Shown here: in pieces, positions 11,823-53,106 of the stretch
How positions within the stretch are numbered: the stretch's first letter is position 1
How the letters are laid out: the number at the start of each line of letters is the position of its first letter
NCBI RefSeq assembly: GCF_011764425.1
Contig: NZ_BLPF01000001.1
Location: 3,339,001 to 3,403,000 of the forward strand
Reading direction: 5' to 3'
Length of the DNA stretch: 64,000 nt
Source of the DNA: Phytohabitans houttuyneae
GTDB taxonomy: Bacteria > Actinomycetota > Actinomycetes > Mycobacteriales > Micromonosporaceae
Notes under the pieces: generated by a model
The model's input: only the letters and a program-made list of their open reading frames with translations
What the model was told of the DNA's origin: nothing
Database searches by the model: none
Position numbers and translations under genes: made by a program

Positions 11823-12041
11823 CGTCACCTGCGGACCGCGTGCGCGGGCCCCGGGGGAGACGTGGAGCGCAGCGGAGCGTCTTCTTTGGGTGCTTTCCCG
11901 CGGGCACCGCTCCGGCCGGCGGCTCGCCAGGGCTCGCCGAAACCCCCGACCTCCGCTGCCAGGTCCGCAGGCCAAGCCCGACCTCCGCGGACGGTGAGGC
12001 CGCGGGAGCGACGGTCCGGACCACCGCGGACATCGCGGTAG
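11823..12041 (+). repeat. Composite intergenic repeat: B unit plus 48-bp repeat A (copy 1)
   Basis: The 363-base gap after the ROK gene contains no convincing gene. It holds a B unit (about 11842-11904, containing CGTGGAGCGCAGCGGAGCGT) and then a 48-bp A unit at 11994-12041 with one mismatch to the common form. A degraded inverted A-like start (GCGGACCGCGTGCGCGGGCCCC) precedes B. The same order, inverted A then B then A, recurs in larger form at 21237-22040. Confidence 0.8.
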
Positions 12042-12116
12042 CTCGCATCTGCTCGATTCTCCAAGGGTGAGCGCCGCGGCCACCGCGCTCGTCGGGGCCG
12101 GTTTACCCTGAGGGCC

Positions 12117-21858: not shown

Positions 21859-22099
21859 TCGAAGCTCACACCGACCCAACTGATCGACAGTCACCGACCG
21901 CGACGACGGCGCCGGTCTGCGGGGACTCGCGCACTCCCGCCTCGATCTGCGGGAGCTGGCTTTTCGGGGGCTGAGCTGGGCGACCGCGGAGGGTGAGGCC
22001 GCGGGAGCAACGGTCCGGACCACGGCGGACATCGCGGTAGCTCACATCTCGTTTCGGGGTTGGACCTTTACCAGAAGCTCACGCTGACCGCGAAGGTCT

Positions 22100-35743: not shown

Positions 35744-35762
35744 GCGTGACCAGCGGCGCGGG

Positions 35763-35810
35763 GTGAGGCCGCGGGAGCAACGGTCCGGACCACCGCGGAC
35801 ATCGCGGTAG
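35763..35810 (+). repeat. 48-bp repeat A (copy at left end of the FxSxx island)
   Basis: Identical over 48 bp to the copies at 46140 and 53031. It contains the palindrome GGTCCGGACC and the hairpin CCGCG-GACAT-CGCGG, and lies 20 bases after the aminotransferase stop. Confidence 0.9.
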
Positions 35811-36172
35811 CTCGGGTCTTCTCGCTCTTGCTCTTAAAGAACCGTCAGCGCAACTCCTTCTGCGCGGGTTCGGACGCCGCGTCGGGCTGTGGGCAGCGGG
35901 TGGCGGGCCGGCCGTGACCGGGTGGCGCGGGCGGGCGAGGCCGAGCCGGTGGTCCGCTAACGACGTGTCCCGTGAGCTGGTTTTTCGTACGTTCGACCAT
36001 GGCGGATCACCCGGCTGCGATTGTTCTTGAGCGAAGCGTCGTCGATCTCGGTCAAAACAGAAAATCCGTTTGTGCCCAAGAAGTGGTGGTCGTCAGCGAA
36101 GCGCTTGGTCAGGCCGGGAATTCCGTTTACCATTCGTGGCAGACATTCGGATCGCGTGGGAAATGAGCACCC
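35811..36172 (+). other. Gene-free leader upstream of the first FxsT gene
   Basis: After the repeat, about 360 bases separate the aminotransferase from the large NB-ARC-TPR gene. Composition is visibly lower in G+C than the neighbours, especially 36000-36150. A 64-codon frame at 35972-36166 shows no actinobacterial codon bias or similarity and is not called. The region probably carries the promoter of the following gene. Confidence 0.5.
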
Positions 36173-39100
36173 GTGTCAGAAACCGCGACGGCGGACAAGC
36201 CGTTTGATGCCCTGGTAGAGGTGTTGTTGCAGGTCCCCGCGCTGAGGGATCAGGCCGAGCGCGACCGCGTGGTCAACGATACCGCCGCTGTCCTGCGTCG
36301 CGCGTTCACGACTCGACGCGCTTCCGATACGCGCGGTGATCTGTTATCGCTGATCCATTCCTACAGCCTGCTCAGCGGCGGCGTGGTGGCCTTCAGCAGC
36401 ATCGTGGCGGACCGGTATCCGGAACCGTCGGCTCTGCGTGCGCACGACCTGGCCCGCGAAATCAGGGGATCGTTGCTGCTCTCGGCACCTGATCGTCAGG
36501 ATCTGTGTCGAATGCTCGGCGAGGTTGGCATTACGGCGGTTTTCAAGGCGCGCGGCGAGCTGTCCGAGGTGCCGGAGCTCAAGGACTTCGGCGTCTGGGA
36601 GGACTGGGCCGCCGTAATCCGGATCATGGAGCGGCAGCCTGCCCCCGAGGGCGAGGCGCCACCGCTGCTCGGATTCGTCGTACGCCTCGCCGACCTCGTC
36701 GACCGCACGCGGGCCGGTGCCCTGCGGCGCTGGGCGGCGAGCGTCGCCGGCGGTCTCGGTGCCACCGAGTCGATCGCCGCGGCGCTGGGGCCAGAGGAGC
36801 GGGACGACGAGGACCTCGGCGCGCCACGCCGGCGCCCGGCCGGCGCCCGCACGATCCGGGGCGGCGTGCCCCTTCAAAACCGCAACTTCACCGGCCGGGT
36901 GGAGCTGCTCGACCGCCTCGCCCGCACCCTCGCCTCGGGGTCCAAGGCGGCGGTGCTTCCGCACGCTGTTCACGGCATGGGTGGCGTCGGCAAGACCCAG
37001 CTGGTGCTCGAGTACGTGTACCGCCACCTGGATGACTACAACCTCGTCTGGTGGTTGCCCGCCGACTCCGCCTCCGGCGTGCTGACCTCGCTGGAGCAGC
37101 TCGCCCGGGAGCTCGGGATCCGACCGGGCGACAACGCGCAGCAGACCGCCCGCCTGGTGCTCGACGCCCTCGCCGCCGGAGCGCTGAAGTGGCTGCTGGT
37201 GTACGACAACGCCAACGACCTCGACTCGATCGACGAGTACGTGCCCTCCACCGGTGGAGATGTCGTCGTCACGACGCGCAACAGGGAGTGGGCGGCCGTC
37301 GGTCTGTCCATCGAGGTTGACGTCTTCCAGCGCGAAGAGAGTGTCGAGCTGCTGCGGCGGCGGACCGGAAACGGGATCAGCGAGGAGGACGCCGACCGCC
37401 TGGCCGAGCGCCTCGGCGACCTGCCGCTGGCGCTGGAGCAGGCGGCGGCCTGGCACCTGCTCACCCAGATGCCGGTCAGCCAGTACATCGGTCTGCTGGA
37501 GCAGCATCAGAAGGAGCTGCTGTCGGAGGGGAAACCGGCCGGTTACCCCATGTCGGTGGTCACGTTCGTGACGCTGGCGCTGGATAAGCTGCGCGCTGAC
37601 GCCCCGGCCACGGCGCAGCTGCTGGAGCTCTTCGCCTTCCTGGGTGGTGAGGGAGTCTCGGTGTCGCTGCTGCGCTACGGCCGCGACGCGGACGTCGTGC
37701 AGCCCTTGCGCGCGCTGCTGGGCGACACGATCAGGATCAACCGCGCGGTCCGCGACCTCAACCAGTACGGCTTGGTCAAGGTCGACAACGACCAGCGCCT
37801 CGAGGTGCACCGCCTCGTCCAGAGCGTGCTCCACGACCTGCTCGACGAGCAGCGGGCCGCGGAGACGCTGCGCAGCGCCCAAAACCTGCTGGCCAAGGCC
37901 AACCCGGGAGACCCCGACGAGGAGGACGACCGCACCGCCCTCGACCGGCAGCGCGAGATCGGCCCGCACCTGCGCCCGGCCAAGATGATCACGGCGAAGC
38001 GGATGGAGGCGCGGTCGACGGTGCTCGACCATATCCGCTACCTGTACAACATGGGCGACTACGAGAACAGCCGCCGGCTCGCCGACGACGCGGTCAAGGA
38101 ATGGGAGAGCGACGACAGCCACCCGCGGTTGGGTCCGGACGGCGAGTTGACGCTCCAGGCCAAGGCCCACATCGCGAACGCCATGCGCGCGCTCGGTGAA
38201 AGCGCGCCGGCCGACGAGCTGACCAACGACACCTACGCGCGCATGCGGCGGTTTCTCGGCGAGACCGCCAAGTCGACCCTGGTGCTGGGCAACCAGATCG
38301 GCCAGGCCATGCGTATCCGTGGCGAGTACGCGGACTCGCTTACATTCGATCGGGAGTCGCTCGACCGGCACAAGGAGGTGAAGGATCTACCGGAGCACTA
38401 CATCCTGCGTGCGCAGTCCAACCTGGCGGTCGCCCACCGCATGGTCGGCGACTTCGTCGAGGCGGCGCGGCTGGACCGGGAGATCGTCGATCGGATCGAG
38501 GCCAGGGGCCGCTCCGACAACAGCTTCCGCGCCCTGGAGACGTACATCAACATCGCCCGTGACTACTACGGGCTCGGTGCCTATCAGGCCGGGCTCGCGG
38601 TGCTGGAAGGGTGGCGCGGTGCGCTGATGGAGAGGCGCAGCAGCGGCCACCGCATCGTGCTGCTGTCCGGCCGGACGTACGGCATCACGCTGCGCAAGGC
38701 CGGCCGGCTGCGGGAGGCGGCCGACGTGCTGGGCGAAAACCTGGAGCAGACCCGGCGCCGGTTCGGCGAAAACCACGAGTACACCGTGGCCGCCCTGTCG
38801 AGCTACGGCAACGCGCTGCGGCAGCTGGGTGACGTGTCCGGCGCGCTGGAGCTGATCGTGGACGCCTCAGGCCGCTACCGCGAGTTTTTCGGCGAGCACC
38901 ACCCCTTGACGCTCATCACCGACATCAACGAGGCCGTGGCCCGGCGGGCCCAAGGTGACAACGACGCCGCGTTGGCACTGGACCTCCGCGCGTACGAGCT
39001 GCTCGCCGAGGTGCTCGGGAGCGACCACCCGTACACGCTCTGCGCGGGTACGTCGCTCGCCACCGACTACGCCCTGCACGGCGAGGCGGCCAGAGCCCGG

Positions 39101-39370
39101 GCCTTGTCGACGGAGGTGCTGGAGCGCAGCCGGGTGACATCGGGCGGTCCGCACGAGGCGCGCGACAACGCCGAGCACCCGTACCTGCTGGCTCGCGCGG
39201 TCAACCTCGCTCACGACATGCGCGCGACCGGCGACGGGGACGAGGCGGCGGCACTCCTGCGCGACGCGGTGTCCGGCCTGCGCCAGACGTTGGGCGCCAC
39301 CCATCCCGAGGTCGTCGACGCGGAGCAGGGCAAGCGGCTCGAGGGCGACGTCGAGGCGCCGCCCACCTGA
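36173..39370 (+). CDS. fxsT: FxSxx-COOH system STAND/NB-ARC tetratricopeptide protein (first copy)
   Basis: A 1065-residue signal-transduction ATPase. The N-terminal 230 residues are helical. An NB-ARC domain follows GRVELLDRLARTL with the P-loop GMGGVGKT (268-275), Walker B-like KWLLVYDNAND, VVVTTRNREW and LPLALEQAAAW. After a winged-helix-like region come about 8-10 TPR repeats (LREAADVLGENLEQTRRRFGENHEYTVAALSSYGNALRQLGD). The end DVEAPPT matches the D-x-EPPP-like C terminus usual in FxSxx-associated proteins. It starts at GTG 36173 and converges on the HExxH gene with 12 bases between. Confidence 0.88.
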   Translation: MSETATADKPFDALVEVLLQVPALRDQAERDRVVNDTAAVLRRAFTTRRASDTRGDLLSLIHSYSLLSGGVVAFSSIVADRYPEPSALRAHDLAREIRGSLLLSAPDRQDLCRMLGEVGITAVFKARGELSEVPELKDFGVWEDWAAVIRIMERQPAPEGEAPPLLGFVVRLADLVDRTRAGALRRWAASVAGGLGATESIAAALGPEERDDEDLGAPRRRPAGARTIRGGVPLQNRNFTGRVELLDRLARTLASGSKAAVLPHAVHGMGGVGKTQLVLEYVYRHLDDYNLVWWLPADSASGVLTSLEQLARELGIRPGDNAQQTARLVLDALAAGALKWLLVYDNANDLDSIDEYVPSTGGDVVVTTRNREWAAVGLSIEVDVFQREESVELLRRRTGNGISEEDADRLAERLGDLPLALEQAAAWHLLTQMPVSQYIGLLEQHQKELLSEGKPAGYPMSVVTFVTLALDKLRADAPATAQLLELFAFLGGEGVSVSLLRYGRDADVVQPLRALLGDTIRINRAVRDLNQYGLVKVDNDQRLEVHRLVQSVLHDLLDEQRAAETLRSAQNLLAKANPGDPDEEDDRTALDRQREIGPHLRPAKMITAKRMEARSTVLDHIRYLYNMGDYENSRRLADDAVKEWESDDSHPRLGPDGELTLQAKAHIANAMRALGESAPADELTNDTYARMRRFLGETAKSTLVLGNQIGQAMRIRGEYADSLTFDRESLDRHKEVKDLPEHYILRAQSNLAVAHRMVGDFVEAARLDREIVDRIEARGRSDNSFRALETYINIARDYYGLGAYQAGLAVLEGWRGALMERRSSGHRIVLLSGRTYGITLRKAGRLREAADVLGENLEQTRRRFGENHEYTVAALSSYGNALRQLGDVSGALELIVDASGRYREFFGEHHPLTLITDINEAVARRAQGDNDAALALDLRAYELLAEVLGSDHPYTLCAGTSLATDYALHGEAARARALSTEVLERSRVTSGGPHEARDNAEHPYLLARAVNLAHDMRATGDGDEAAALLRDAVSGLRQTLGATHPEVVDAEQGKRLEGDVEAPPT

Positions 39371-39382
39371 CCGCGAGCCTTC

Positions 39383-40663
39383 TCAGGTGGCGTTGGCGGC
39401 CCGCCAGCGCTCGTGCAGCTGACGCTGGCGCTGCTCGGCACGTCGCGCCACGGCGGTCGGCACCGGCTCGGCGAGCAGCGCGTCGGTGAAGTGCCGCAGG
39501 TGCGCGGCGAACCGGGCACCGACCGGCGTGAGCGCTCCCGAGCCTTCCAGCGTCGCGAGGCTCTGAGCCACCTGGAGGCGTGCGTTCGCGAACTCCTGCT
39601 CCGCCGCGTCGGTCACGCCGGGTACACCCCGCAGCGCCCGCCACGTGTCCGCCACGCCGGCGAACGCGTACACACCCTGCAACAGGCCGGCCAGCGGCCG
39701 GGCGTCGGTCCGCCACGGGGCGAAGTACCGGCGTTCGTCGGCCGGGTCGCTCAGCTGCACGAGGTCGAGCAGGGCGCTGAGCTTCGCGTGCTGGTACTCG
39801 TGGACCAAGGTGACCGCGAAGTCCGCGGCGGTGGCCGGCCGGGTCAACCCGAAGACGCCGAACACGTGCCGGATCGTGGCGCTGCGTGCCGAGCGGCCGT
39901 CGCCTTGCAGGGGCACGAGCGCGCGCAGGCCGGCGGCGATCTCGGCGGCCCGGTACGGCACGCGCTCGGTGAGCAGGTGCCAGGCCTCGGTGAAGAGCTC
40001 CTGCCAGTGTGCGAACTCGGCGGCCGACAGGCGGGGGGCCGGGGGAGCGTGGTAGCCGTGCCGGTAGGGATCGACATCGTCGAGCGCCAGCTTCGCCCGG
40101 ACCGTGCCGGAGCCGGCCACGAGCGTCCGGACCGGTTGCCAGCCGTCGTCCGCCGCGCCGGTCACGGTGACGGGGCCGCGGCCGGCGTCGACGGTCAGCG
40201 TCCCGCCCGCGCTGGTGACCCGGGCGTGACGGGCCTCGCCGACCGCCAGCCGGCCCACTCCGGGCAGCGCGACGGCGCCGTCGCGGACCGGCACCGTCAT
40301 CTCGGTGTCCACGCGAGCGGCGGCGCAGGTGACGGCCGCGACCGCGCCGAGGTGCGCCACGTCGTCCCGCTCGGCGCGTCCCTGCGCGACCGCCCGGCTG
40401 ACGATGGCGACCCAGGCCCCGACCAGCGGCGAGCCCAGCACCCGGGCCGCCTCGGCGGACGCGGCCGCCCGGGCCGCCTCCAGCGCGTGCACGATGCGGT
40501 CCCGGTCCGCCGCCGGCCCCGACCACCGCCGCAGCAGGTTGGCGATCAGCAGGAGGTGCTTGCTCAGCTGCGCCTCGGCGAGCGCCCGGGACGCGCCACG
40601 CCCGCCGGTGCTCGCGGCGAGCCCGCTGAGCAGGGTCGCGGGGAGCCGGTGGTACGCCGTCAC
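39383..40663 (-). CDS. HEXXH motif-containing peptide modification protein of the FxSxx system
   Basis: A 426-residue protein. The defining motif HEYQH (H288, E289, H292) lies in DFAVTLVHEYQHAKLSALLDLV. The N terminus is helical (HRLPATLLSGLAAS, AQLSKHLLLIANLLRRW). Databases place such proteins beside radical SAM maturases as putative peptide-modifying enzymes, more recently as 2-oxoglutarate-dependent peptide beta-hydroxylases; I rely on recall for that assignment. GTG 40663 overlaps the fxsB stop (GTGA), so it is third in the fxsA-fxsB-HExxH unit. Confidence 0.85.
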   Translation of the reverse strand: MTAYHRLPATLLSGLAASTGGRGASRALAEAQLSKHLLLIANLLRRWSGPAADRDRIVHALEAARAAASAEAARVLGSPLVGAWVAIVSRAVAQGRAERDDVAHLGAVAAVTCAAARVDTEMTVPVRDGAVALPGVGRLAVGEARHARVTSAGGTLTVDAGRGPVTVTGAADDGWQPVRTLVAGSGTVRAKLALDDVDPYRHGYHAPPAPRLSAAEFAHWQELFTEAWHLLTERVPYRAAEIAAGLRALVPLQGDGRSARSATIRHVFGVFGLTRPATAADFAVTLVHEYQHAKLSALLDLVQLSDPADERRYFAPWRTDARPLAGLLQGVYAFAGVADTWRALRGVPGVTDAAEQEFANARLQVAQSLATLEGSGALTPVGARFAAHLRHFTDALLAEPVPTAVARRAEQRQRQLHERWRAANAT

Positions 40664-41865
40664 GCGGTCACCGCCCCGGCGAGAGCCCGCACGTCCGTGG
40701 CCACCCGCGCCCGCACGTGGTCGACGAACAGCCGCAGGTCGGCACAGTAGACGGACGGGTTCCGGAACCCGGCGCCCGGCCGGTACCGGTGCGCGTAGTG
40801 GCCGCCTCCGCACACGCGACGCACCGGGCAGGCGGCGCACTCCTGGCCGAGGGCGGCCAGGCCGATCTGGCGGGCCACCACGCCGGGGTGGGTCAGGGCC
40901 GTGTCGAACTCGTCGTCGCGCACGTTCAGCCCGGTGGCGCACGCCCCCTCGTACGCCGACTTCAACGCGTCGACCTGCTCGATCGCGCCATCCGACTCGA
41001 CGACGACGAGGGCGGCGGGACTGAGCCCGATCTGCTCCGACCGGGAGGCGCCGCCGAGTGTCAGGTCCACGACACTCTCGAACAGCCGGACCGGCACCGC
41101 GTCCGGATCGCCGTGCCACGCGTCGAACGCGCCGACCAGCCACCTGCCGTAGGCCGTCGGGCTGTCGCCCGGTCGTGCGGGAGGGGAGCCCCAGTTGGCG
41201 TGGGGCAGCAGGAAGTCGATCCCCGGCGGGTCGAACGCGCGCAGGCTCCGGTAGCACGCAACCGGGTCCGTGTCGGGCGCGACGGTGCAGAGCAGACCGC
41301 CGAAGCCGTCGCGGTGCTCCGGCCGGGCCAGCAGCTCCAGCGCCCGGCGCACCGACGCGAAGCTGCCGCGGCCCGCGTGGGTGACGCGGTGGCGGTCATG
41401 GGTCTCGGCGACGCCGTCCACGCTCACGGCGACCGTGATGCGGTGCCGGCGCAGCTCGCGCAGCGCCGCCTCGTCCAGCAGGACCCCGTTGGTCTGTAGC
41501 CCCAGGCGCAGGTCGCAGCCGGGGGGCAGCGCCGCACGCAGCGCGGCGGCCAGCTGACCGAGCTTGGCAGCGCCGAGCAGCATCGGCTCGCCGCCGTGCA
41601 GCACCACCTGTACACGGCGCAGGTCATGGGCGCGCACGTGGCGGCCGAGTCGATCGGCGAACGCGGTGAACACCGCGGCCGGCATCACGTCCGGGCGGCC
41701 GCGCCAGGTCTGGTCGGCGTGCGTGTAGACGTAGCAGTACGAGCACGCCAGATTGCACCGCTGATGGACCTTGACGATGAACTCATGGAACGGCCGCGGC
41801 CGCCAACCCCCGTCGAGGAGAGCCGCCACGTCGAAATCCTGGTACGGCCAGCCGGCCGATGTCAT
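40660..41865 (-). CDS. fxsB: FxsB-type cyclophane-forming radical SAM/SPASM peptide maturase
   Basis: A 401-residue radical SAM enzyme. The [4Fe-4S]/SAM motif is C37-x3-C41-x2-C44 (CNLACSYCYVY). Then VVLHGGEPMLLG, VAVSVDGVAETHDRHRVTHAGRGSF, and a C-terminal SPASM region with auxiliary-cluster cysteines (CAACPVRRVCGGGHYAHRYRPGAGFRNPSVYC). FxsB enzymes form C-C cyclophane links in the precursor F-x-S region. ATG 41865 overlaps the precursor stop (ATGA), so the two are translated together. Confidence 0.93.
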   Translation of the reverse strand: MTSAGWPYQDFDVAALLDGGWRPRPFHEFIVKVHQRCNLACSYCYVYTHADQTWRGRPDVMPAAVFTAFADRLGRHVRAHDLRRVQVVLHGGEPMLLGAAKLGQLAAALRAALPPGCDLRLGLQTNGVLLDEAALRELRRHRITVAVSVDGVAETHDRHRVTHAGRGSFASVRRALELLARPEHRDGFGGLLCTVAPDTDPVACYRSLRAFDPPGIDFLLPHANWGSPPARPGDSPTAYGRWLVGAFDAWHGDPDAVPVRLFESVVDLTLGGASRSEQIGLSPAALVVVESDGAIEQVDALKSAYEGACATGLNVRDDEFDTALTHPGVVARQIGLAALGQECAACPVRRVCGGGHYAHRYRPGAGFRNPSVYCADLRLFVDHVRARVATDVRALAGAVTA

Positions 41866-42062
41866 GACTCGTCAAGAAAGGAGCTGAAAGCCGACAGCAC
41901 CCCATTGGGATCGTTGAGGCCGGATTGCAGGCGCCGGATGGAGCGCAGGACCGGCGAGTCGCCGTCAGCATCCAGTAGATGATTGAGGGAAATCCCTGCG
42001 ACATCGACGAGCCCGGCGTCCTGCGGCGTGGAGCCCGCGCCTGATCCAGCTGCATCCACCAC
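41862..42062 (-). CDS. fxsA: FxSxx-COOH-type RiPP precursor peptide
   Basis: Short peptide directly in front of fxsB. The leader has LVDVAGISLNHLLDADGDSPVLRSIRRLQSGLNDP; the C terminus reads GVLSAFSSFLDES. The F-x-S tripeptide (FSS) is thus 8 residues from the end, while the last five residues, FLDES, have Asp where the family has Ser. GTG 42062 or 42059 is favoured because GGAGGA (42069-42074) stands 6-9 bases upstream; ATG 42086 (74 residues) lacks a ribosome-binding site. The stop overlaps fxsB by 4 bases. Confidence 0.82.
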   Translation of the reverse strand: MVDAAGSGAGSTPQDAGLVDVAGISLNHLLDADGDSPVLRSIRRLQSGLNDPNGVLSAFSSFLDES

Positions 42063-42210
42063 CGGCTGTCCTCCACCATATGGCATGTCCGTTCAACCCC
42101 CGCAGCCAAGCGCATCATGAAACGGCCGGGCGGCGTAAGACGCCGTCCAGCCCGAATTGGTTCCAGTGTTCACTCCATTGGAGGATCTTGGCGGTCCGAC
42201 CATCAGCTGG

Positions 42211-42227
42211 TTGACAAGACTTGTCAA
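42211..42227. promoter_or_regulatory. Perfect 17-bp palindrome upstream of fxsA
   Basis: TTGACAAG-A-CTTGTCAA lies 3 bases past the end of the second fxsT and about 150 bases before the precursor. With a 1-base centre it cannot form an RNA hairpin, so a protein operator is more likely. The arm contains a TTGACA -35-like hexamer, and a similar ACTTGACAA occurs in front of the second fxsT. Confidence 0.5.
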
Positions 42228-42230
42228 AAC

Positions 42231-45095
42231 TTAAAGCAGCGGTGGCTCGATGACGCAGTCCAATCTATCCCCGCGTGTGATAGTGGAAACCATCGGATGA
42301 TCTTGGCCGTAGAGGCCTTCCACTTGTTGCAGCACCCGCTGGCGCGTGCTCGACGCCTTGGGACCGTCGACCGCGATGAGGTCGACCGCCAGATTGGCCT
42401 CGGCCGCGATCACGTCCGGATGGTCGGGGCGGGGGTGTACCCGTTTCGCGAGCTCGACGGCCCGCCGGGAGGCGGTCAGCCGGTTCGGGTGCCCGCTCTG
42501 GGCGTAGTCCGAGGCCAGGTTCACCGCCGCCGCGACGGCGAACGGATGATCCTGTCCAACCTTGTCGAGCAGTGCCTCGCTGCTCGCGCCGTCGATACGC
42601 ATGGCCTGGCCGAGCTCACCCCGGGCCCGCAGCACGTTGGCCAGGTTGATCTGGGCCGCGACGGTCAACGGGTTGCGGGGTCCGAACAGCCGGCCATAGC
42701 TGTCGATCACACTGGACGCCTGCTCGATCGCGTCGTCCGCCCGGCCGAGCAGGTGCAACGTGTTCGCCCGGCTCATCTGGAGCGCCAGCGGGTACTCGTG
42801 GTGCTCCCCGAACAGCCTCGCGCACTCGTCGTACGAGGTGTCCAGCAGCGCCAGCGCATCCTCCAGCCGCCCGATGCCGCGCCGCGCCAGGGCCAGCGCC
42901 CGCCGGGCGAACATCAGCCCGCGCTCCATCCTTGTCCGCTCGCGCGTCTCGATGCGTTCCAGCATCGGCTCGACCTCGTTGAGAACGTCCTGGTAGCGCC
43001 CCTGCCCGTTGAGGTCTTCGGCCAGCGCGTTGATCGACAACAGTGTCTGCCAGTTGTCCTCGCCGAAGGCGTCCCGGTGCTGCCGCAACGCGATCCGGTC
43101 GACCTCCTCGGCCTCCCGGAACCGACCGGTGAGCCGCAAGCTGATCGCGAAGTTGTGCCGGCTCATGATGGTGCGCGGCTGGTCGTCGCCGATGCTGTCG
43201 CGACATTGCCTGAGAGTGTCCTCGTCGAACTCAAGCGCCCGCCGGTAGTCACCGGCGATGCGCAGGTCCGCGGCCCGGCTGCCGGCCGTCGCCAGCGTGT
43301 AGGAGTGCCTCTCGCCGTACGCCGGGTCGACGCGGAGCTCGCTCATGGCGCTGCGGGTGAGCTCCGCGGCCTTCTCGTAGCGGCCGACCGCGCGGAGCGC
43401 GTTCGCCCACTCCTGCGAGGTGCGCAGCACGAGGTGGTCGTCGCCGGACGGGTCGTTTCCCACCCGCCAGGCGCGGTAGGCCCGCTCCCCGAGGTCGCAG
43501 GCCGCCGTGTACTCGCCGTACAGGTAGTGGAACCGGATCTGGTGGTACACCGTCGTGCGGGCCTTGAGCTCCGCGGACGTCACCAGGTCGGTGGCATCCA
43601 GGTGGGCGGCGATCTCGCGGTAGATCTCGACGGGACGCAGGTCGTCGGGCGGGCCGGGGTCGGCGGTGGCCAGGAGGGTATGGGCGTGGCAGCGTGCCCG
43701 CTCGGCCTCGCCACCGGAGAGCGCGTGCCGGACGACATGTCGCACCAGCGGCAGCACCTCGACCTGCCGACCGCCGTCGGCGTAGCGGACCAGTCCGTGC
43801 CGGCGGAGCTCGATGATCGCCTTGTTCAGCGCCAGCTCACCCTGCGGCATCTCGGTGGGAGTCTCGTTCTGGGCGACCGTGCCCCGGCCGAGGAGGTCCT
43901 TGGAGACGGGCGCCGCGGCGAAGAAGGAGAGGGCTTCGAGCAGCACCAGGGCCTGGCGGCTCGCGGCCTCGAGACGGTCGAGCGCGAACAGCACCGTCAG
44001 CGACGCGCTTCGGCCGTAGCCGTCCACCGCTCCGGCGGCCATGCGATAGGCCAGCAGGGCGCCGTCTGACCACTCCACTGGCACGGTGGTATCCCGCCAC
44101 CAGGCGACCGTCTGGCGAAGCGCCAGTGGATTTCGCCCGTAGGCCTCGACGACCTTTTCCCGCGCCTCGGGAGCCGCATCCGGTATGTGCTCGCGCAGGA
44201 GCAGTTCCGCTTCGTCGTCGGTGAGATCAGGCACCTCGACACCGATCCGCGAACCGTTGTCACCGAGAGCGGGATCGCGGGTAGTGATGATGACGTGACC
44301 ACCGTTGGGCACCAGGCTCAAAAGACCCGGCTCGTCAAGTCCGTCGAAGACCATCAGATAGGGAAACCGGCGTGACGCGAGCCCGTCCAACACCAGCTTT
44401 ACCGTGCGATCGACGCGATGATGACGCTCAATCTTGAGTGCTGCCGCGAGGTCGATCAGGGACGTCCGGGCGGCGTCGGTCGTCGCGGACGGGACCCACC
44501 ACACCGGGTCATCCGCGGCGGTATGACGATCGAGATACTGGAGGACCGCCTGCGTCTTTCCCGCACCTATCGGTCCGTGCAGCACCAGCCGCACGTCCGG
44601 TCCGCTGTGCAGCGTGGTGTGAATGGACTCGATGAGCCCTTCGCGACCGATGAAACCCGGGGCGGCCGATGGCCGGAATCCGATCAGCGGGGCGGGCTCT
44701 TCCCGCTCCGCGACGGTCGCCGCCGGCGCGATCGGACGGGCTCGCTCCTCGCCGTGAGGTGGCACCGTGTCCTGCAACTCGTGCCGCGCACGCCGCCACA
44801 GCTCGACCGTCCGCTGCTCCAGGAGGGTGCTGTCGTAGTCGAAAGGTGCCATCGATGCGAGCACGTGCAACATCGATCTGACCTTTTCCCAGGCCGGGAC
44901 CGTACTGGCCCGCAACATCGCGCTCGCCGTCTCGTGCGAGACGGACTGGAATTCACTGGGAAGTGCGACCGTGGCCTTGGCGATCACCCGGGCGGCCGGC
45001 TGTCCGGCCACGTCATAGATTTCGTGTATGGCCGCGACGAAGTCGCGTAATGGTCCTTCGGGTAGCTTGTCAAGACCCGGCAATGGGATAGCCAC
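42231..45095 (-). CDS. fxsT: FxSxx-COOH system STAND/NB-ARC tetratricopeptide protein (second copy)
   Basis: A 954-residue protein with the same plan as the first copy but a different N terminus (MAIPLPGLDKLPEGPLRDFVAAIHEIYDVAGQPAARVIAKATV). P-loop GPIGAGKT is at 174-181, then Walker B-like YLMVFDGLDEPG, HVIITTRDPALG and NPLALRQTVAWW. About ten TPRs of the Kinesin-light-chain type follow (RFREAEEVDRIALRQHRDAFGEDNWQTLLSINALAEDLNGQGRYQDVL). The end, DCVIEPPLL, is the FxsT-type tail. It lies upstream of and codirectional with fxsA, so it may share transcription or regulation. Confidence 0.88.
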   Translation of the reverse strand: MAIPLPGLDKLPEGPLRDFVAAIHEIYDVAGQPAARVIAKATVALPSEFQSVSHETASAMLRASTVPAWEKVRSMLHVLASMAPFDYDSTLLEQRTVELWRRARHELQDTVPPHGEERARPIAPAATVAEREEPAPLIGFRPSAAPGFIGREGLIESIHTTLHSGPDVRLVLHGPIGAGKTQAVLQYLDRHTAADDPVWWVPSATTDAARTSLIDLAAALKIERHHRVDRTVKLVLDGLASRRFPYLMVFDGLDEPGLLSLVPNGGHVIITTRDPALGDNGSRIGVEVPDLTDDEAELLLREHIPDAAPEAREKVVEAYGRNPLALRQTVAWWRDTTVPVEWSDGALLAYRMAAGAVDGYGRSASLTVLFALDRLEAASRQALVLLEALSFFAAAPVSKDLLGRGTVAQNETPTEMPQGELALNKAIIELRRHGLVRYADGGRQVEVLPLVRHVVRHALSGGEAERARCHAHTLLATADPGPPDDLRPVEIYREIAAHLDATDLVTSAELKARTTVYHQIRFHYLYGEYTAACDLGERAYRAWRVGNDPSGDDHLVLRTSQEWANALRAVGRYEKAAELTRSAMSELRVDPAYGERHSYTLATAGSRAADLRIAGDYRRALEFDEDTLRQCRDSIGDDQPRTIMSRHNFAISLRLTGRFREAEEVDRIALRQHRDAFGEDNWQTLLSINALAEDLNGQGRYQDVLNEVEPMLERIETRERTRMERGLMFARRALALARRGIGRLEDALALLDTSYDECARLFGEHHEYPLALQMSRANTLHLLGRADDAIEQASSVIDSYGRLFGPRNPLTVAAQINLANVLRARGELGQAMRIDGASSEALLDKVGQDHPFAVAAAVNLASDYAQSGHPNRLTASRRAVELAKRVHPRPDHPDVIAAEANLAVDLIAVDGPKASSTRQRVLQQVEGLYGQDHPMVSTITRGDRLDCVIEPPLL

Positions 45096-45109
45096 GTCGA
45101 ACGCTCCGG

Positions 45110-45139
45110 GCCCTAGGACGCCACGTCACTTTTTGTCAA
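45110..45139 (-). promoter_or_regulatory. Candidate promoter of the second fxsT
   Basis: On the minus strand TTGACA (45134-45139) is followed after 17-18 bases by CTAGGG/TAGGGC. The -35 match is perfect and the -10 is poor. The spacing to the GTG start is short (about 15 bases from the -10), implying a short leader. Confidence 0.3.
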
Positions 45140-45426
45140 GTTCCAGGATCTCATGCGAGGCTCGCTGGAGCCAATGGGCCGGCGAACCCAAATTTGGACA
45201 TCGATTGGCGATTTTATGACGGAGGACGCCACTGTAGAAGATGACCATCCGCTGCCCCTCCATGATTCAAGTTGGCCTCAACTGACAGCTCATCCTCACA
45301 ACGCTGGACACGAGCGGACGAATTGGGCTCGTCAAGACATGTTGGTATCAGCTCCGGAACCTTTCACTTGACTGGCACGCAATTCAACCTGGGTGACGAC
45401 GCCATCGGACACCGAGGAGCCGACAC

Positions 45427-45807
45427 ATGATGGAGCTGCCCGATCCACTTACGCTTTTCACGTTGGTCCGCTTATTCAGGGACGCCGTCGCCATCGCCGC
45501 CGGGGTTGGCGTGTGGTCGCGAAAGATGTCTCGCCCCCGCCCGGTCCGGCGGATGATCCGGGTGCTCCGCCGCCGTCCGGAGGACCGAGTCCGGGCGGGG
45601 AGGCGTCGCCGCACCGCCCCGCGGAGGACCGTGCGGTGCGGCCAGGCGGACGGATCACGGCGACCCTGCTCCGGTCGGTGGGACGCGTCCGCTCCGGCGG
45701 CCGGCTCCCGACGGCGATGTCCCGGCTTCCGGGCCGGTCAGCGTCAGGGTCCAGCCTGTCGACGTCGATGCCGCCGACCCGGCTGGCCGCCGCCGGGGCG
45801 GTGCTGA
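45427..45807 (+). CDS. Doubtful ORF in the 45.1-46.2 kb remnant region
   Basis: ATG 45427 follows GAGGAG by 7 bases. The first 33 residues (MMELPDPLTLFTLVRLFRDAVAIAAGVGVW) look like a real hydrophobic N terminus. Beyond that the frame becomes Arg/Pro-rich, and a more protein-like proline linker (SPPPGPADDPGAPPPSGGPSPGG) reads in another frame, so an interrupted gene is possible. No family is recognised. The rest of 45096-45426 is lower in G+C and shows no convincing gene. Confidence 0.25.
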   Translation: MMELPDPLTLFTLVRLFRDAVAIAAGVGVWSRKMSRPRPVRRMIRVLRRRPEDRVRAGRRRRTAPRRTVRCGQADGSRRPCSGRWDASAPAAGSRRRCPGFRAGQRQGPACRRRCRRPGWPPPGRC

Positions 45808-45845
45808 GGTCCGCGGGCGGCTTGACTCTGACACCGTGTCAGCCG

Positions 45846-46131
45846 GCAGCATCGATCTCGTGTTCGGGATCGGGGACTTCGCCGCGCTGGGACGGGTGTC
45901 CGTGCGGATGCTGCGGCACTACGACGCGATCGGGCTGTTGCTGGCCGGCCAGGACGGATCCGGCCAGCGGATGCCGCTACTCCGAGGCAGACCAGCTGCG
46001 TCGCCTCAACCGGATCATTGCGATGAAGGACCTCGGCTAACGCTCGGCCAGGTCGCGGAAGCTCCTCGACGACAAGGGCGCCGTCGAGGAGCTGTACGGC
46101 ATGCTCCGGCGGAGATGGTGGCGCAGCTGGC
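45846..46131 (+). pseudogene. MerR-family regulator remnant
   Basis: Pieces of one MerR-type protein lie in order in three frames: FGIGDFAALGRVSVRMLRHYDAIGLL (winged helix), then DPASGCRYSEADQLRRLNRIIAMKDLG ending in TAA, then LTLGQV, then LLDDKGAVEELYGMLRR. The intact relative would run through all of these as a MerR DNA-binding domain plus start of the coiled coil. Several indels and a stop make this a true pseudogene. It runs directly into repeat A. Confidence 0.8.
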
Positions 46132-46139
46132 CGCGGAGG

Positions 46140-46187
46140 GTGAGGCCGCGGGAGCAACGGTCCGGACCACCGCGGACATCGCGGTAG
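46140..46187 (+). repeat. 48-bp repeat A (copy at right end of the FxSxx island)
   Basis: Identical to the copies at 35763 and 53031, same orientation. It lies between the MerR remnant and the glmM stop (19 bases away). One plus-strand frame reads through it as EAAGATVRTTADIAVARI. Confidence 0.9.
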
Positions 46188-46206
46188 CCCGCATATTGCT
46201 CTTGAT

Positions 46207-47553
46207 CTAGACCGGGCTGGCCTCGCGGACGACGGCGGCGATCCGCTCGGCGACCGACCTGGCGGTCTCGACCGTGGCGGCCTCGACCATGACCCGCACC
46301 AGCGGCTCGGTGCCGGACGGGCGCAGCAGCACGCGACCGGTCTCGCCCAGCTCGGCCTCGGCCTCGGCGGTCGCGGCCAGCACCGGCGCCGCGGACGCAC
46401 CCGCCGCGCGGTCGCCGACCGGCACGTTGACCAGGACCTGGGGCAGCTTGGTGATCACCGACGCGAGGTCGGCGAGCGAGCGGCCGGTGGCGGCCATCCG
46501 GGACATGAGGTGCAGGCCGGTGAGGACGCCGTCGCCGGTGGTCGCGTACGCCGGCATCACGATGTGCCCGCTCTGCTCGCCGCCGAGGCCGAGCGCCGAG
46601 GCGCGCAGCTCCTCCAGCACGTACCGGTCGCCGACCTTGGTCTCGATCAGGCGGATGCCCTCGCGCGACATGGCCAGGCGCAGGCCGAGGTTGCTCATCA
46701 CGGTGGCCACGAGCGTGTCGGCTGTCAGCGCGCCGCTATCCCGCATCGCCAGCGCGAGGATCGCCATGATCTCGTCGCCGTCGACCTCCGCGCCCTCGGC
46801 GGTGACGGCCAGGCACCGGTCGGCGTCGCCGTCGTGGGCGATGCCCAGGTGCGCGCCGTGCTCCAGTACCGCCGCCTTGACCGGCTCCAGGTGGGTGGAG
46901 CCGCAGCCCTCGTTGATGTTCAGGCCGTCGGGCTCGGCGTGGATGGCGATCACCTCGGCGCCGGCCTCGCGGTACGCCAGCGGCGCGACGTCGGACGCCG
47001 CCCCGTTGGCACAGTCGACCACGATCTTCAGCCCGTCGAGCCGGTGCGGGACCGTGCCGACCAGGTGCTGCACGTAGTGCTCCGCGCCGTCGAGCAGGTC
47101 ATGCACGCGCCCCACCCCGCCGCCGGTCGGGCGGGTCCACGACACACCCTCGGCGACCGCCGCCTCGATCCTGTGCTCGACCTCGTCGGGCAGCTTGTGC
47201 CCGCCGGCCGCGAAGAGCTTGATGCCGTTGTCGGGCATGGGGTTGTGCGACGCGGAGAGCATCACGCCGAGGTCGGCCTTGGCCTCGCTCACCAGGAAGG
47301 CCACGCCGGGCGTCGGGAGCACGCCCACGCGCACCACGTTTGCGCCGGCACTCGCCAGGCCGGCCACCACCGCCGCTTCGAGCATCTCGCCGCTGGCCCG
47401 CGGGTCGCGGCCGACGACCGCGAGCGGCGGGTGGCTACGGTCGGACTCCGCGAGCGTACGGGCTGCGGCCACCGCCACCGCCATCGCCAGCTCGGGCGTG
47501 AGGTCGGCGTTGGCCCGGCCGCGAACGCCGTCGGTGCCGAAGAGACGCGCCAT
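46207..47553 (-). CDS. glmM: Phosphoglucosamine mutase
   Basis: A 448-residue enzyme converting GlcN-6-P to GlcN-1-P for UDP-GlcNAc. Seen: [24 protein letters not shown], the phosphoserine loop [16 protein letters not shown], Mg-binding [15 protein letters not shown] and the C-terminal [15 protein letters not shown] phosphate-binding loop. It follows rpsI on the same strand after a terminator. Confidence 0.97.
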
Positions 47554-52992: not shown

Positions 52993-53030
52993 AGTGCGCA
53001 CAAAGGGGTTCAGGTCGCCCATCGCGGAGG

Positions 53031-53078
53031 GTGAGGCCGCGGGAGCAACGGTCCGGACCACCGCGGACATCGCGGTAG
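53031..53078 (+). repeat. 48-bp repeat A (copy before the nas operon)
   Basis: Identical to the copies at 35763 and 46140, same orientation, between the last roadblock gene and nasA. Confidence 0.9.
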
Positions 53079-53106
53079 CCCAAATCCCTTGGAAAAGATC
53101 ATCTAC

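Follow-up and report, generated by a model that had tools for sequence, protein, structure and literature searches.

In the stretch of 64,000 nucleotides of the Phytohabitans houttuyneae genome analysed here (the window; G000:C1:3339001-3403000 of an 11.34-Mb genome), two STAND proteins of different types, an FxsT with an EAD2-type front end (FxsT1) and an FxsT with a predicted XRE-type HTH (FxsT2), are paired around a single FxSxx peptide unit. The coupling of FxSxx peptides to STAND proteins has already been proposed and is a known kind; the pairing of an EAD2-type with an HTH-type FxsT around one such unit is a conserved variant of it, and we read the window, with a probability of about one half, as carrying a self-regulating peptide-signalling cassette. 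The window shares the precursor motif, the maturase, the HExxH enzyme and the STAND-TPR partner with the FxSxx-COOH system (TIGR04268, TIGR04269, TIGR04267, NF040586; PMC7159879), and differs from it in having two divergent FxsT paralogs, neither with ParA/TIR, in the EAD2/VMAP-M0 domains of FxsT1, in the predicted XRE-type HTH of FxsT2 and the operator-like repeats, and in a precursor that has three residues past FxSxx and scores below the TIGR04268 cut-off. The earlier note on this DNA had called the product and its role undescribed, which was too strong, as Kaur 2020 (PMC7159879, section 24) proposed that FxSxx peptides coupled to AP-ATPase-TPR proteins act as a toxin or signal, in conflict or signal modules, and NCBIfam covers all the parts. 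A limited search of the open literature, with most subscription papers outside it, returned no paper on the two-FxsT form, the HTH-FxsT or its sites, and no experimentally assigned role for FxSxx loci was found in the literature searched.

The five genes occupy positions 36173-45095, with FxsT1 (36173-39370, 1065 aa; EAD2 - VMAP-M0 - NB-ARC/STAND - TPR; NF040586, PF19956, PF19916, PF00931 and TPR_12) on the plus strand, facing four genes on the minus strand: FxsT2 (42231-45095, 954 aa; predicted XRE-type HTH - STAND - TPR), the FxSxx-type precursor (41862-42086, 74 aa from a putative start codon), the cyclophane-forming radical SAM/SPASM maturase FxsB (40660-41865) and the aKG-HExxH peptide hydroxylase-type enzyme (39383-40663). 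The precursor and FxsB overlap by ATGA, and FxsB and the HExxH gene by GTGA, the GTG start of the latter lying on the FxsB stop, while the ends of the HExxH and FxsT1 genes are convergent and 12 bp apart. All five parts are covered by NCBIfam models, and only the precursor falls under the cut-off. The description of an overlapping precursor-FxsB-HExxH unit bracketed by FxsTs of 1065 and 954 residues, given in the earlier note, agrees with the coordinates, which held on re-check, with the overlaps and with the NCBIfam scores. Among the ten neighbours scanned, those to one side include YjeF, AcpS, an aminotransferase and a GlmS-type protein, and those to the other side S9, L13 and a GlmM-type protein.

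All five other same-genus genomes have the aminotransferase gene directly beside glmM. In the window the two lie about 10.4 kb apart, and the cassette island between them (35744-46206, edges approximate) is an insertion that is absent from those five genomes; at the empty site of L183, the aminotransferase is reversed. A 62-bp direct repeat is located directly inside both island edges, with the left copy at 35753-35814 and the right at 46130-46191 (both plus strand, 94% alike), and a partial copy was observed at the empty site of the same-genus genome L181. As a mark of the insertion these repeats are weak, since the window contains three or more additional copies and relatives have copies as well; given this dispersal within the genus, no insertion mechanism is claimed. 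The dispersed repeat, 50-60 bp with palindromic parts, was seen in the window at 11986-12045, 21991-22043, 35753-35814, 46130-46191 and 53029-53079, and also elsewhere in the genome and the genus, in the loci L013, L016, L125, L180 and L181. Fragments resembling a MerR-type regulator, spotted by eye in the translation, spread over two frames at 45840-46210, at the right island edge.

With residues 1-223 of FxsT1 as the query, matches were obtained in 29 of 250 Micromonosporaceae genomes, belonging to 12 of 44 genera of this family, while none of the 395 other genomes of the phylum matched, a result that is weak as it comes from a single-sequence search. The loci fetched were 20 matching this FxsT1 N terminus and 20 hand-picked from FxsB matches, partly for an FxsT1 N-terminal hit, the latter not being an unbiased sample; these hand-picked loci comprised seven with the two-FxsT set, one with a T1-like protein only, three with another FxsT type, one with fragments and eight without FxsT. 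The tree of 68 FxsT rows, from which the FxsT rows of L016, L017, L018 and L020 were dropped beforehand, revealed an FxsT1-type group of 27 rows (support 94) and an FxsT2-type group of 25 rows (support 96), which largely mirror each other in their inner branching. Though L070_9385 had been a T1 candidate by score, it was rejected as such, since the tree puts it in the T2 clade; the cassette genes of L070 stand in tandem order. Co-occurrence of both FxsTs, a point raised in the earlier note, was observed in 25 of the 27 T1-clade loci, with the T2 of L056 being a piece at a contig end; of the other two, L063 runs into the end of its contig and L064 has only T1. Both enzymes, FxsB and HExxH, were also present in 25 of 27 (missing in L051 and L064), and T2 together with both enzymes in 24 of 27, window included, which places the arrangement beyond chance.

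Of the 79 named loci, which are those found with FxsT1-type relatives and come from many actinomycete genera, 66 show an FxsT gene that converges on the enzyme genes, five show no such arrangement and eight have no enzyme. At least two FxsT rows occur in 31 of them, 12 of these lacking an HTH-type FxsT (the HTH start of L127 was mis-called), and HTH-type FxsTs occur in 18. Two FxsTs at a locus are therefore not special, and what sets this gene content apart from other FxSxx loci is the EAD2-type and HTH-type pairing. A third STAND gene adjoins the set in L057, L058, L060, L061, L062 and L063, with ParA-like N termini in L057 and L062, the two scanned, and also a TIR match in L057. FxsT matches over the cut-off were seen at nine places of the own genome, including the two of the window, and another locus of this genome, L013 (G000:C1:1901500-1921000), contains two FxsB genes, one of them paired with HExxH and enclosed by two FxsTs that lie on opposite strands. 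In L081, L083, L084, L085, L086, L092, L093 and L098, FxsB is 57-72% identical to that of the window and no FxsT lies in the fetched stretch; these eight also have no HExxH gene or convincing precursor except L083, which keeps a precursor-like ORF, an FxsT2 C-terminal end and an HExxH-like piece.

The distances of T1, T2, FxsB and HExxH were compared across 24 loci in which all four proteins occur, a set that includes two near-identical pairs and also L100, whose T1 partner falls outside the T1 clade. They correlate with r from 0.73 to 0.93, each pair of proteins being matched by 0 of 1000 permutations, and T2 shows greater divergence than T1 in all 276 locus pairs. The correlated distances are a sign of co-inheritance and no proof of interaction or contact. 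Two loci contain the FxsT pair without the peptide core: in L051 T2 and T1 lie 187 bp apart without enzymes or precursor, the genome (G076) having two FxsB genes elsewhere, and in L106 (Actinoplanes sp. KI2) T1 and T2 occur without enzymes, with a 470-bp gap and no precursor seen there. The FxsTs are therefore tolerated even where no peptide is encoded beside them, and an antitoxin role of the peptide becomes less likely; these coreless loci also fit a peptide-independent role. Beyond FxsT, FxsB and HExxH, no family was found in at least eight of 34 loci, counted over genes of at least 70 aa within about 10 kb, and four families reached 4-7 loci; there is therefore no shared exporter or protease and no sixth conserved gene in that range. 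An ordinary RiPP antibiotic cluster, with the FxsTs as immunity proteins or cluster regulators, would account for the complete set of maturation genes, but the absence of an exporter or leader-protease family at this threshold and the persistence of the FxsTs after the biosynthetic genes in L051 and L106 make it very improbable.

The precursor has the C-terminus ...DPNGVLSAFSSFLDES, ending SAFSSFLDES, in which FSSFL is followed by DES, so it does not end exactly in FxSxx-COOH, and it scores 15.5 bits against the TIGR04268 cut-off of 28. Judged by position, motif and relatives, it is a variant precursor of the FxSxx system. Precursor-like ORFs precede FxsB in all 25 T1-clade loci with FxsB; their ends read SAFxSF or much like it, their motif is FxS or FxN, and they run on for one to about seven residues past FxSxx. 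Several tails are acidic after the aromatic residue. An aryl-to-beta-carbon link in an F-x-S/N motif is three-residue cyclophane chemistry. FxsB (TIGR04269, 474 bits, cut-off 370) has ChlB (PDB 9gm3, 263 bits) as its closest solved structure by sequence, while the HExxH enzyme (TIGR04267, 164 bits, cut-off 40) matches PDB 22nu at 192 bits and ChlH (8s5f) weakly at 31 bits. As compared with the ChlB/ChlH pair of cyclophane synthase and aKG-HExxH hydroxylase, the window enzymes are separate overlapping genes and the precursor differs, being FxSxx-type. None of the 24 loci compared has lost the CxxxCxxC, HExxH or Walker A motif. According to PMC12636437, an aKG-HExxH protein formerly taken for a metallopeptidase depends on alpha-ketoglutarate and, once the cyclophane has formed, hydroxylates Asp and His; two of its relatives also perform oxidative backbone cleavage. 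Kaur 2020 (PMC7159879) still took the HExxH protein as a peptidase. Six second-set loci were inspected for a precursor after HExxH, with a precursor-like ORF present in L109 and L112, where one T2 promoter could therefore serve the whole unit, and no clear precursor there in the other four.

FxsT2 scores 722 bits against NF040586 (cut-off 300), with the match beginning at residue 142, and has its STAND region between the HTH and the TPRs, with DUF7779 at 375-460. Its N-terminal stretch is conserved and was modelled by AlphaFold2 as five helices with a pLDDT of 95.4. In a Foldseek search with residues 1-110, XRE-type regulators took ranks 1-5, ClgR having a probability of 0.90-0.94 at an E-value of 0.2; all E-values were above 0.001, ComR was among the weak hits and the lower ranks hold unrelated folds. 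By sequence, the TPR region is matched by the TPR structures of kinesin light chains. Kinesin light chain TPRs bind short peptides, and their ligands are aromatic-acidic, of which the acidic precursor tails are reminiscent. FxsT2 is probably peptide-sensing, and with a STAND ATPase, TPR sensor repeats, a predicted HTH whose PDB matches are weak, and an operator pattern nearby, the best reading of its sequence would make it a STAND regulator that acts on transcription of both fxsT2 and the peptide operon. The RRNPP regulators, which join an XRE HTH to TPRs (e.g., ComR), provide intracellular control by short peptides, and STAND regulators such as MalT are also known. FxsT2 likewise joins HTH and TPR, a likeness in working that is set apart from sequence kinship; it differs from RRNPP proteins in the STAND ATPase between the two, which places it outside that family, and its ligand would be a RiPP. 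Where FxsT2 has the predicted HTH and FxsT1 has EAD2 and VMAP-M0, the FxsT scanned in L013 has a ParA-TIR front, in the order ParA/CbiA - TIR - NB-ARC - TPR, in agreement with Kaur 2020 (PMC7159879). The TIR module of such a canonical FxsT is presumed to be toxic.

Two operator-like sites flank FxsT2. The palindrome TTGACAAGACTTGTCAA (42211-42227) lies 3 bp past the FxsT2 stop and about 125 bp before the precursor start, and is the only match in its own genome at up to two mismatches, while the repeat TTGACAAAAAGTGACG (45124-45139, minus strand) holds two half-sites 10 bp apart directly before the FxsT2 start. A promoter/terminator scan of window 41800-45500 gave one weak promoter-like site and no terminator. 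The motif came from 7-mer counts around T2 in the first set, which gave CTTGTCA-like words, and the 10-bp pairs were seen on reading the regions; nine named loci repeating others and four near-identical loci were removed before counting. With six half-site words (TGACA, TGTCA, TGCCA, TGGCA, TGACG and CGTCA), half-site pairs before T2 numbered 29 at spacing 10 and 16 at spacing 20, with 0-3 at every other spacing from 6 to 21. By the same words, the 10-bp pair was found before T2 in 18 of 34 loci and after it in 13 of 34, as compared with 1/26 before T1, 1/71 before other FxsTs and 5/254 before other genes of the same loci, these last control regions being richer in G+C (0.69 vs 0.61 and 0.64). 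The Fisher values of 3e-15 (upstream) and 5e-10 (downstream) are descriptive, the word set and spacing having been chosen after reading 25 first-set regions and the loci being related. This loose set placed a pair on either side of T2 in 25 of 34 loci and none in nine, while exact TGACA/TGTCA gave the 10-bp pair upstream in 1/34 and downstream in 7/34 (controls 0/26 and 0/71). Among 11 T2 genes outside the motif definition, the upstream pair appeared at spacing 10 in nine and at spacing 20 in seven, the count at any remaining spacing between 6 and 21 being 0-1, and a downstream pair was seen in one. FxsB upstream regions behind T2 contain 27 exact hexamers against 4.7 in shuffles (35 T2 loci, seven doubles included), or 18 against about 3.9 with doubles removed.

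The half-site TTGACA resembles, and overlaps, the -35 consensus, upstream pairs with exact half-sites are few, the Foldseek hits of the HTH are weak, and many actinobacterial proteins carry HTH-like N termini, all of which would suit promoter elements, or the sites of another regulator, beside an FxsT2 HTH that does not bind DNA. Promoter elements would, however, hardly be expected to occur in inverted as well as direct pairs with spacing peaks only at 10 and 20, nor to be nearly absent before T1, other FxsTs and other genes; FxsB upstream regions without T2 show seven exact hexamers against 8.5 expected (doubles included), and the gene-content count left no other family as a common regulator at its threshold, so this explanation seems distinctly improbable. 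The candidate operator pattern supports FxsT2-based regulation. In the clade of L058, L060, L061, L062 and L065, the downstream site has the form YGYCA-N5-TGCCA in five of five loci, a form that no other first-set locus has there, and the recognition helix reads VSHETYRAAL as against VSHETVSAxL; this joint change of half-site and helix is one evolutionary event in a pattern made after reading, and is suggestive only.

FxsT1 scores 842 bits against NF040586 (FxSxx_TPR, cut-off 300), with Pfam matches to EAD2 at residues 15-90 and to VMAP-M0 at 142-203, so that both of the unlike N termini pointed out in the earlier note can be identified, the other being the predicted HTH. Among the relatives scanned, EAD2 alone was detected in those from loci L082 and L087 and VMAP-M0 alone in those from L112 and L127; enzymatic effectors in place of the FxsT1 N terminus were rejected, as the relatives examined have EAD2 with M0, EAD2 alone or M0 alone. 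A death-fold match was also rejected, the AF2 model (pLDDT 89.6) having no PDB hit at E<=0.001 and the vFLIP and PYD rows being at noise level. In Phytohabitans flavus (L125:7849-10367), FxsT1 is split into two ORFs, while FxsT2 there is one ORF. Searches for EAD2 in the 26 genomes with T1 or the cassette gave T1 as the sole hit in 12 and two hits that were both T1s in two more, so that no EAD2 protein other than T1 was found in 14 of 26; 11 had others besides T1, and G057 gave no hit. In the own genome EAD2 was found in FxsT1 only, and a homotypic EAD2 partner was rejected, the expected partner being missing in those 14 genomes.

EAD2 and VMAP-M0 belong to the conflict network, the cassette is inserted and patchy in the family (29/250 genomes by the FxsT1 N terminus), and a conflict reading of FxSxx/AP-ATPase coupling is laid out in PMC7159879 section 24; a suicide or antiviral system of that kind would have the peptide as a toxin or alarm amplifying AP-ATPase effectors, with both FxsTs as effectors and the HTH only as an attachment domain. 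We consider it unlikely, as neither window FxsT has a TIR, nuclease or protease domain (Pfam), VMAP-C was not found in the own genome and passed the cut-off in 13 of the 26 genomes searched, PADLOC matched neither FxsT, and the operator pattern would be left unexplained. FxsB gave weak pVip hits in PADLOC (up to 46 bits), read as the shared radical-SAM fold. Though VMAP ternary conflict systems also have the EAD2 and VMAP-M0 of FxsT1, the lack of VMAP-C in the genome, and of vWA or MoxR among the ten scanned neighbours, places the window outside them. The signalling or defence circuit suggested in the earlier note is supported for signalling by the predicted FxsT2 HTH and the operator-like sites before FxsT2 and the precursor; defence finds no direct support, with no PADLOC match to either FxsT and no TIR in them.

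With the cassette, the co-inheritance and the operator pattern read from the sequences and the HTH fold from a prediction, the self-regulating peptide-signalling cassette might work as follows. By analogy with relatives, FxsB would form a Phe-x-Ser/Asn cyclophane near the end of the precursor, and this cyclophane-bearing tail would then be hydroxylated by the HExxH enzyme. The XRE-type HTH of FxsT2 would bind the half-site pairs of two promoters, that of fxsT2 and that of precursor-FxsB-HExxH. We infer, along the lines of the earlier note, that the FxsTs read the mature peptide, with the TPR arrays probably sensing it as ligand; it would shift FxsT2 between DNA-binding states, in a direction that may be either activating or repressing, and may trigger ATP-dependent assembly of FxsT1, which would be the output arm of the cassette through its EAD2/VMAP-M0 front end. 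We advance more tentatively, as a possibility with the odds against it, that the cyclophane RiPP is an intracellular autoinducer of an NLR-like STAND-TPR transcription factor that controls peptide synthesis, and that the RiPP also licenses another NLR-like protein, whose front end is an effector adaptor. This would be a priming circuit of two receptors, with one paralog setting expression and the other executing, and the coreless T1-T2 pairs would eavesdrop on peptides encoded at other places of their genomes. The FxsT2 variant has a predicted HTH at the place of the canonical TIR module, and the two short DNA sites allow a direct test of regulation. If this is confirmed, a reporter on these sites could serve the search for the natural trigger, and the cassette would be a case of a RiPP whose genes are controlled by the STAND receptors that read it, a link between NLR-like proteins and signalling by peptides.
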